A stretch of 64,000 bases of DNA from Sporichthyaceae bacterium. Its GTDB lineage: Bacteria > Actinomycetota > Actinomycetes > Sporichthyales > Sporichthyaceae. The notes under the pieces were generated by a model. The model made no database searches, had not been told where the DNA came from, and worked only from the letters and a program-made list of their open reading frames with translations. Location of the stretch: NCBI GenBank assembly GCA_036493475.1, contig DASXPS010000010.1, positions 1 through 64,000 on the forward strand, written 5' to 3'. Positions 37,331 to 43,248 of the stretch are shown here, one piece after another. The translations under genes and the position numbers were made by a program. Each line of letters starts with the position of its first letter. The first letter of the stretch is position 1.

Positions 37331-38740
37331 TTAGAAGTCCGCGTTGCGCGGAGTGCGTGGGAACGGGATCACGTCGCGCACGTTGGTCATGCCGGTGGCG
37401 TAAACCATGGTGCGCTCGAAGCCCAGGCCGAACCCGGCGTGCGGCACGGTCCCGTAGCGGCGCAGGTCCCGATACCACCAGTAGTCGTCGCGGTTCAGCC
37501 CCATCTCGTCCAGCCGCGCGTCGAGCACGTCCAGGCGCTCCTCGCGTTGCGAGCCGCCGATGATCTCCCCGATGCCCGGTGCCAGCACGTCCATCGCGGC
37601 CACCGTGCGGCCATCGTCGTTGGCGCGCATGTAGAACGCCTTGATATCGCGCGGGTAGTTCATCAGCACCACGGGGCGGCCGACGAGTTCCTCGGTGAGG
37701 TAGCGCTCGTGCTCGGACTGCAGGTCGGCGCCCCAGGCCACCGGGAACTCGAACTTCGTGCCGGCTGCCACGGCTTTTTCCAATGCGGCGATGGCGTCGG
37801 TGTAGGTCATCCGCTCGAAGCTGGACTCGACGAAGCTCTCCAGCCGGCTGATGCAGTCCGGGTCGATGCGCTCGGCGAAGAAGGCGAGGTCGTCGCCGCG
37901 TTCGTCGAGCACCGCGCGGAACAGGTATTTCAGGAACGCCTCGGCCAGGTCGGCGTCGGCGGTGAGATCGGCGAAGGCGATCTCCGGTTCGATCATCCAG
38001 AACTCGGCCAGGTGCCGCGCGGTGTTGGAGTTCTCCGCGCGGAACGTCGGGCCGAACGTGTAGACCTTGCTCATCGCCAGGCAGTACGTCTCCACGTTCA
38101 GCTGGCCGGACACGGTCAGGTGCGCCTCGCGGCCGAAGAAATCCTCGTTGAAGTCGACCTTGCCGTCCGGGGTGCGCGGCAGGTTGGCCAGGTCGAGGGT
38201 GGACACCCGGAACATCGCCCCGGCGCCCTCGGCGTCGTTCGCGGTGATGATCGGGGTGTGGATCCAGAAGAAGCCGCGGTCGTTGAAGAATCGGTTCACG
38301 GCCATCGACAGGCAGTGCCGGACCCGGGTGACGGCGCCGAAGGTGTTGGTGCGGGCGCGTAGGTGCGCGATCTCCCGCAGGTACTCGAACGTGTGCTGCT
38401 TGGCGGCGGCGGGATAGGTGTCCGGGTCGTCCACCCAGCCGAGCACCTCGACCCGGCTCGCGTCCACCTCGACGCTCTGCCCCTTGCCCTTGGACTCCGC
38501 CACGGTGCCGGTGACCACCACCGAACAGCCCGTGGTCAGTCGAGTGATCTCATTGGCGTAGTTGTCCAACTCGGGTCGCGCGACCACCTGCAGGGTGGCG
38601 AAACAGGAGCCGTCGTGCACGGCGAGGAACGACAGCCCCGCCTTCGCGTCCCGCCGCGTCCGCACCCACCCCTGCACGGTCACGGTGTCGCCGACCCCGG
38701 CGTCGCCGCGGAGAACCTCGGAGATCATCAACGTGGTCAC
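37331..38740 (-). CDS. asnS: asparaginyl-tRNA synthetase
   Basis: A 469-residue class IIb aminoacyl-tRNA synthetase. An OB-fold anticodon-binding domain ([16 protein letters not shown], residues about 18-105) precedes the catalytic core: motif 2 is near [20 protein letters not shown], and motif 3 is [15 protein letters not shown]. The sequence [20 protein letters not shown] and an insert of the AsnRS kind separate it from AspRS. GTG 38740 gives a normal N-terminus. A palindromic gap of 288 bases lies upstream. Confidence 0.96.
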
Positions 38741-38866
38741 CGGGGCAGCCTAGCCGGCAGGTACCTCAGCCCACCCGCGTGATGTCCGGCCAGACCCGGC
38801 GGTGGATGCGCAGCACCTCCGCATCCACTCGCGCCGCCGCGTAGGGCCGGTGCTCCCCTACCGAAA

Positions 38867-41466: not shown

Positions 41467-42075
41467 CTAGCGGGAGTAGTACTCGACCACCAGCTGCTCG
41501 TCACACACGATGGGGATCTCGGAGCGGACCGGCGGGCGTTCCAGGCGGAATTTCAGATCGTCGTGGTTCACCTGCAGGTACGGCGGGATGACCTCGGCGG
41601 CGTTCGCACCCGCGGCGGCCACCTGGAAGTTCTTCTTGTTCCGGCTGCGGTTGGCCACGGCGACCACGTCGCCGGGCTGCACCCGGTAGGACGGACGGTC
41701 CACCCGGGAGCCGTTCACCTCGAGGTGCTGGTGGGTGACCATCTGGCGGGCCTGGTAGATGGTGCGGGCCAGACCGGAGCGCAGCACCAGGGCGTCCAGT
41801 CGGGTCTCCAGGTCGACGATGAGCACCTCACCGGTCTTGCCGGTGTGCGCGTGGGCGTGCTCGAAGGCGCGGCGCAGCTGGGTCTCGGAGATGTCGTACT
41901 GCGCGCGCAGGCGCTGCTTCTCCAGCAGACGGGTCTTGTAGTCCGAGGTCTGCTTGCGACCACGGCCGTGCACGCCCGGCGGGTAGGGGCGGGCCTCGAA
42001 GTACTTCACGCACTTCGGGGTCAGCGGGATGCCCAGTGCGCGGGACAGCTTGGCCTTGGGTCGGGAGTTGTTCAC
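41467..42075 (-). CDS. rpsD: 30S ribosomal protein S4
   Basis: A 202-residue primary 16S rRNA-binding protein. It is the zinc-free form: the N-terminal Cys cluster is missing and the start reads NNSRPKAKLSRALGIPLTPK. FEARPYPPGVHGRGRKQ, LLEKQRLRAQYDISE and the S4 RNA-binding domain RLDALVLRSGLARTIYQARQ follow; it ends CDEQLVVEYYSR. GTG 42075 was chosen by family length; GGAG is upstream. It stands alone, not in the alpha operon, and has a structured leader. In other bacteria S4 represses its own message. Confidence 0.95.
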   Translation of the reverse strand: MNNSRPKAKLSRALGIPLTPKCVKYFEARPYPPGVHGRGRKQTSDYKTRLLEKQRLRAQYDISETQLRRAFEHAHAHTGKTGEVLIVDLETRLDALVLRSGLARTIYQARQMVTHQHLEVNGSRVDRPSYRVQPGDVVAVANRSRNKKNFQVAAAGANAAEVIPPYLQVNHDDLKFRLERPPVRSEIPIVCDEQLVVEYYSR

Positions 42076-42124
42076 GTCGGTGGTCTCCGTCGGTCGCGTG
42101 TGTGCGTCTGCGTGCGGGCAAGGG

Positions 42125-42189
42125 AAAAAGTGCAGCGTCGGTCCGGAGGGACCTCCGGTGGCACGATGTGCCTCCACCGGGCTGCACTT
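42125..42189 (-). ncRNA. structured rpsD leader with terminator-like 3' end
   Basis: Read on the minus strand: a 9-bp outer helix (AAGTGCAGC/GCTGCACTT) encloses two hairpins, one with CCGGTGG/CCACCGG arms and one GGTCC-CTCC-GGACC. It is followed at once by TTTTT and lies 49 bases before the rpsD start. This three-way junction plus U-run looks like an intrinsic terminator/attenuator. No minus-strand gene lies just upstream that it could end, so it is best read as a regulatory 5' leader, possibly bound by S4 itself. The structure is seen; the role is inferred. Confidence 0.6.
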
Positions 42190-42306
42190 CCAAGGCCCCG
42201 GAGAACCGGGATGCCTGCATGGTGCGGGGCGCCACCACAGGGCGGCGCCGGGCCAGCCTAGGGCACCGGCCCGGACGGGAGCGAATCGGGCCGACGGGGG
42301 CCTACC

Positions 42307-43248
42307 GTGACCAGCGTGATCCGGCGCCGGAGGTGGACCTTCGTCGCCGCGATGCTGGCGCTGAGCTTGAGCGGCTGCGGCGGCGCGGGAGGTTCGGCGG
42401 GGTCGGCGAGCGGGTCCAGCGCGGAGCCGAACCCGCCGGCCACCGGCCCGGCGAACACGGCACCGGCCTCCGGAACCGCGGCCGCGCTGCTCGCCACGCT
42501 GGCGGTGAAGGGGCGCGCGCCGATGACCGGCTACAGCCGGGAACAATTCGGCCAGGCCTGGGCCGACGTGGACCGTAACGGCTGCGACACCCGCAATGAC
42601 GTGTTGCGCCGGGACCTCACCGGCCTCGCGTTGCGTCCGGGCACGCACGACTGTGTGGTGGTGTCCGGGACGCGCGCCGATCCCTACACCGGGCAGGACC
42701 TGCACTACGTCCGGGGCGGCAGCGTCGGCGTGGACATCGACCACGTGGTCGCGCTCGGTGACGCCTGGGCCACCGGGGCGCAGTACTGGCCGGTGGCCGA
42801 ACGCATCGCGTTGGCCAACGACCCGGGGAATCTGCTCGCGGTGGACGCCTCGGCGAACCGGCAGAAGGGCGACGCGGACGCGGCCAGTTGGCTGCCGCCG
42901 CAGAAGTCCTATCGATGTGCCTATGTAGCGCGGCAGGTCGCGGTGAAGGCCAAGTACGGGTTGTGGGCCACCGCCGCCGAGCGGGACGCAATCGGTCGGG
43001 TGCTCACCACCTGCCCGGTCCAACCGGCGCCGGCGGTCGGCCTGATGGTGCTTGCCGCGCCGGGGTTAGGTGTGGTGCCGACCGCATCGGCAACGCCGCG
43101 GTCGTCCACCACGTCCGCGGGGACTGACCCGCAATTCGCCACCTGTGCCGAGGCGCGTGCACACGGGTATGGGCCTTACACCAGAGCCGACACGGAGTAT
43201 GGCTGGTACCGCGACGCCGATGGCGACGGGACGGTCTGCGAGAGCTAA
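42307..43248 (+). CDS. secreted HNH nuclease (DUF1524) with excalibur domain
   Basis: A 313-residue lipoprotein-like protein. Signal with Cys after FVAAMLALSLSGC, then a Gly/Ser/Pro linker. The DUF1524/GmrSD-like HNH region reads VDIDHVVALGDAWATGAQYW, NDPGNLLAVDASANRQKGD, with the His-Asn-Asn/His catalytic pattern. The C-terminal excalibur domain is CAEARAHGYGPYTRADTEYG then RDADGDGTVCE, a calcium-type motif. Likely a surface-anchored DNase for nutrient uptake or defence. GTG 42307. The stop overlaps that of the convergent lipoprotein gene. Confidence 0.88.
   Translation: MTSVIRRRRWTFVAAMLALSLSGCGGAGGSAGSASGSSAEPNPPATGPANTAPASGTAAALLATLAVKGRAPMTGYSREQFGQAWADVDRNGCDTRNDVLRRDLTGLALRPGTHDCVVVSGTRADPYTGQDLHYVRGGSVGVDIDHVVALGDAWATGAQYWPVAERIALANDPGNLLAVDASANRQKGDADAASWLPPQKSYRCAYVARQVAVKAKYGLWATAAERDAIGRVLTTCPVQPAPAVGLMVLAAPGLGVVPTASATPRSSTTSAGTDPQFATCAEARAHGYGPYTRADTEYGWYRDADGDGTVCES

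Follow-up and report, generated by a model that had tools for sequence, protein, structure and literature searches.

A conserved, branched RNA element upstream of rpsD in Sporichthya-related actinobacteria, a candidate S4 leader

Known ribosomal-protein leaders either work through conditional terminators or mask the ribosome-binding site (PMC7247131). For ribosomal protein S4, autoregulation has been described in Escherichia coli and Bacillus subtilis, where it proceeds via unrelated structures (PMC10931766). A survey of new ribosomal-protein leaders reported S4 candidates only in Bacteroidia, Flavobacteria, Clostridia and Fusobacteriales, and none for Actinobacteria (PMC7247131). Likewise, we found no actinobacterial rpsD leader in the literature, and S4 control in actinobacteria with a stand-alone rpsD appears to be undescribed in the publications searched.

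Here, we analyzed the region upstream of rpsD in a 64,000-nucleotide stretch of Sporichthyaceae DNA (hereafter, the window). In this genome rpsD is the sole S4 gene found, and it stands alone as the only ribosomal-protein gene at the locus. This resembles B. subtilis, where S4 represses its own stand-alone rpsD gene (PMC10931766 section 2.3); however, the B. subtilis leader is described as translational, while the window element has no Rfam match and its binding of S4 is putative. With the E. coli alpha-operon operator (Rfam Alpha_RBS) the element would share S4 autoregulation via an mRNA structure, but that operator is a pseudoknot over the rpsM ribosome-binding site, whereas the window carries a hairpin and a three-way junction some 50 nt 5' of rpsD. 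The surveyed S4 candidates are, like this element, lineage-specific predicted leaders of transcription units with rpsD, but they precede rpsD-rpoA or rpsM operons (PMC7247131).

On the minus strand, positions 42189-42125 read AAGUGCAGC-CCGGU..ACCGG-A-GGUCC..GGACC-GAC-GCUGCACUU, followed by UUU (Table 1). The initial annotation had described a 9-bp helix around two hairpins, then T5 and 49 nt to the GTG at 42075, and all of these parts are present in the sequence and its fold, with linkers of one and three nucleotides around P3 in the three-way junction. The minimum free energy of this segment is -35.2 kcal/mol compared with a mean of -20.9 for shuffled sequences (z = -4.4), and none of 200 shuffles reached it. 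The two inner hairpins can also pair in another way that is only 0.1 kcal/mol from this minimum in the window sequence; the sequences of relatives settle the choice in favor of the pairing given in the annotation. It had also been noted that rpsD has no adjacent upstream gene on its strand, which is borne out, since the nearest gene in that direction on the minus strand has its end at 43245, on the far side of the divergent plus-strand gene. At the equivalent place in the related locus L004 this divergent gene is missing, and it was therefore apparently inserted.

Table 1 Features of the rpsD region in the window.
Feature	Position	Strand	Basis or remark
rpsD, ribosomal protein S4, 202 aa, GTG start at 42075	41467..42075	-	Pfam Ribosomal_S4 + S4
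5' leader, ~173 nt	42076..42248	-	Inferred from position of -10-like hexamer
GGAG, Shine-Dalgarno-like, 9 nt 5' of rpsD GTG	42085..42088	-	Sequence
T5 after P1, window species only; possible intrinsic-terminator tail	42125..42129	-	Sequence and alignment
P1, 3' strand (GCTGCACTT)	42128..42136	-	Fold and alignment
P3 hairpin	42140..42153	-	One pair U-A / C-G / U-G across relatives
P2 hairpin, no spacer after P1	42155..42180	-	4/8 pairs change on both sides across relatives
P1, 5' strand (AAGTGCAGC)	42181..42189	-	Fold and alignment
P0, upstream hairpin, conserved TGCAGGC before it	42194..42215	-	Alignment A1
TAGGCT, -10-like hexamer	42255..42260	-	Transcription start placed near 42248, upstream of element
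Divergent gene upstream of rpsD	42307-43248	+	Putative secreted or lipoprotein-like product, GmrSD_C and Excalibur domains

The comparison within the order covered five Sporichthya-related genomes from two genera, namely that of the window and four relatives. The window species and L004 make up the window genus (genus 1), and genus 2 includes L003, L005 and L006; among the genus 2 genomes, one is registered as a Sporichthya MAG (L032). Identity at 4-fold degenerate sites of rpsD is 0.56-0.75 between these genomes and 0.90 in the close pair L005/L006. In 5/5 genomes the element, composed of hairpin P0 and the three-way junction P1-P3, was found upstream of rpsD only, each genome having a single rpsD, with the shared architecture of a TGCAGGC-preceded hairpin P0 and then AGTGCAGC-P2-A/U-P3-G(A/C)C-GCTGCACT. 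Its position in each of them would fit a 5' leader of rpsD, with a -10-like hexamer further upstream as a putative promoter element.

The covariation check in relatives that had been proposed with the annotation was run on this alignment. Standard pairs fill 96.2% of 130 pair cells, and sliding the 3' partners by one to three columns lowers pairing to 31-59%. Five pairs change on both sides, four of the eight in P2 and one in P3, one of the four in P2 being unpaired in two sequences, while eight of the nine pairs of P1 show no variation at all. Since there are only five sequences, three of them close, this covariation rests on few independent events. Fold z-scores of the relatives on the rpsD strand range from -3.4 to -5.3, and both the alignment and the leave-one-out models point to a structure conserved with compensatory changes, as in ribosomal-protein leaders.

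Covariance-model searches gave a congruent picture. A model built without the window sequence recovers the window leader in cmsearch with 47 bits (E = 1.7e-9), the runner-up having 17 bits (0.011), and a model from genus 2 only recovers L004 (E = 6.7e-12) and the window (E = 6.5e-9). Strong matches in the five genomes of the order are rpsD leaders only, the next best having an E of 0.07. When the leave-one-out model R2 was run over the whole genome, the site was not listed, apparently as no more than 150 first-look candidates are scored; direct cmsearch on the window finds it. Outside the order, model R1 yielded only weak, approximately chance-level matches over 247 genomes of the class (E 5e-4 to 0.01), and it gave no match in 29 rpsD-region loci of other families (best E 0.05). 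The Rfam 15 families, S4 leaders included, gave no match at gathering score (best sub-threshold hits 13-14 bits, E above 3), and a permissive Rfam scan of the region returned chance-level matches only. The annotation had suggested a new actinobacterial RNA leader: a structured, covarying rpsD leader without Rfam match is indeed found, but “actinobacterial” is too broad, because the element was detected only in the order of the window and the rpsD leaders of Streptomyces differ.

The hexamer TAGGCT recurs identically in L004 at -201 and in L003 at -367, and in L005/L006 it is supplied by a conserved rare CTA Leu codon inside the divergent DUF2470 gene. These occurrences suggest a distal rpsD promoter upstream of the element but do not prove one. 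Within the window the same hexamer is found again at 38747-38752 (minus strand), directly 5' of the GTG start at 38740 of an asparagine-tRNA-ligase-like ORF (37331-38740), which suggests a leaderless transcript for this ORF.

The genus 2 genomes carry the element in antisense orientation within the 5' end of the divergent DUF2470 gene (Pfam PF10615), whose domain is described as a hemoprotein family (PMC11014987). Here, an iron-box-like palindrome (TTAGGTTAGGCTCACCTAA) is located between the element and rpsD; because this promoter region separates the two, not all rpsD transcripts of genus 2 need carry the leader. Between L003 and L005/L006, identity at 4-fold degenerate sites of the DUF2470 gene reaches 0.88-0.89 within the element, as against 0.48-0.53 in the rest of the gene, and amino-acid identity is similar in both parts (82-85% inside, 72-74% outside). 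Where the P2 stems of L003 and L005 differ, the changes compensate each other, and they lead to amino-acid replacements (D to G, L to F, V to A). This pattern would look like that expected of a nucleic-acid structure under selection, and it offers a rare case in which compensatory changes of an RNA helix take precedence over the amino acids that an overlapping gene encodes. The window genus lacks the DUF2470 gene at this locus, with a paralogue elsewhere, and retains the element.

Altogether, the element is a probable further member of the ribosomal-protein leaders, with S4 as a putative ligand. On balance, and with clear reservations, we interpret it as a lineage-specific S4 leader that acts in cis on rpsD, with S4 recognition and attenuation being our conjecture. 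Transcription would start near 42248, and in the nascent RNA hairpin P0 would form before the three-way junction P1-P3. S4 in excess of free 16S rRNA, the most likely ligand, would then bind and stabilize the junction and thereby lower rpsD expression. In the window species, where U5 follows P1, the stabilized junction might serve as a transcription attenuator, and attenuation at T5 is plausible there for this reason. As the relatives lack U5, attenuation is not a shared mechanism, and in those species the same RNA would have to work via translation or mRNA stability. No convincing antiterminator for P1 was seen in the leader: the upstream UGCAG can pair with CUGCA, which gives 5 nt compared with the 9 bp of P1 according to sequence and fold. 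Local alignment of the leader with the 16S 5' domain, a comparison of primary sequence only for which the genus 2 genome G002 was used, as the window assembly gave no 16S match, was no better than with shuffles. Because of these two results, we treat S4 binding as presumptive. The leader is short, has a defined fold and is open to test.

Several other explanations have to be considered for an element of this kind. The annotation had called it a three-way junction terminator, and it might be an ordinary intrinsic terminator or insulator against stray transcription into rpsD. A G+C-rich 9-bp stem with a direct U-tract is found in the window species, and chance is an unlikely reason for the location of T5 directly after the helix, since the minus strand of the 64-kb window (71% GC) contains T5 in three places only and one of them is located exactly at the end of P1, a coincidence that was noticed after the fact. 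In L004, in addition, a same-strand gene ends about 270 nt upstream of rpsD. However, the 4/4 relatives carry GCTATCC, GCTTGG or TTGTTCG in place of T5 and still keep the junction, so a conserved terminator was rejected: of the annotated feature the junction stood, and the terminator did not. Furthermore, the 1.1 kb upstream in the window contain no end of a minus-strand gene, and altogether we regard this explanation as unlikely. A simple terminator scan of the window missed the site at 42125 because the scan ignores branched stems.

A more serious contender, although still doubtful, is a conserved and structured rpsD leader that does not bind S4 and instead senses another signal, for example iron or heme status, or serves RNA stability or processing only. 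The structural evidence fits it equally well, no 16S mimicry was found, and both the nearby gene of a hemoprotein family and the iron-box-like sites in relatives are in line with it. On the other hand, ribosomal-protein leaders are usually under autogenous control by the encoded protein (PMC7247131, PMC10931766), and the only ribosomal-protein gene at the locus is that of S4. It is improbable that the element functions in the DUF2470 mRNA, on the other strand, or at the DNA level and is a leftover in the window genus: in genus 2 it overlaps the DUF2470 coding start and that strand folds well too, yet several G-U pairs of the rpsD strand become A-C mismatches there, and the element persists despite loss of the gene. 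The rpsD-strand fold is also the more stable one in L003 and L005 and slightly so in L004, but slightly less stable in the window. That the element is a functionless relic of DUF2470 coding sequence is very improbable, even though in-frame remnants are readable on the plus strand (KCSVGP...GLH; QCSGG...GLHSLGARG). Between the window and L004, conserved letters are mostly limited to the paired segments, P1 is conserved regardless of codon position, and P2, though different, remains paired.

Starting from the S4-leader interpretation, a more specific evolutionary course can be sketched, which we offer as speculative and rather unlikely in its entirety. An S4-sensing junction may lie antisense in the 5' coding region of an iron-box-linked DUF2470 gene, so that ribosome supply and iron/heme metabolism would share one bidirectional regulatory region. 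The window genus would then have lost the neighbor and kept the RNA, and the window species would have gained a U-tract that turned the RNA into an attenuator.

A different rpsD leader of about 175 nt, highly conserved and apparently structured, is present in one group of Streptomyces at L008:1282-1455 and L009:2151-2324 as well as at 15 further loci (alignment A2), with the motif CTCGCGTGCTGCACGTATGTGCCCAGACC; in the four loci scanned it had no Rfam match. Like the window element, it is a conserved, apparently structured region upstream of a stand-alone rpsD without Rfam match, but its length, motifs and branching differ and model R1 misses it. Homology of the window element with the Streptomyces leaders is unsupported by this model. 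The existence of distinct Streptomyces leaders next to this element points to several separate inventions of S4 regulation within a single class.

A second Streptomyces-type arrangement upstream of rpsD was observed in L007, L033, L035, L043, L052, L117-L122 and others. In these loci, a three-way junction can form on the rpsD strand opposite the sequence for the DUF2470 N-terminus, and synonymous sites there are constrained; L052 and L033 retain the segment and seem to have lost the DUF2470 gene. Stand-alone rpsD genes of L151 and L161 (family f3) and of L157 and L182 (family f36) have their own conserved 5' regions, which are unlike that of the window and without Rfam match. Finally, many actinobacterial families (L003, L005, L007, L034, L050, L065, L078, L110 and others) have iron-box-like palindromes of the TTAGGTTAGGCTNNCCTTA type in the interval separating rpsD from a divergent DUF2470-like gene, hinting at iron-linked control of rpsD, of the DUF2470-like gene, or of both.
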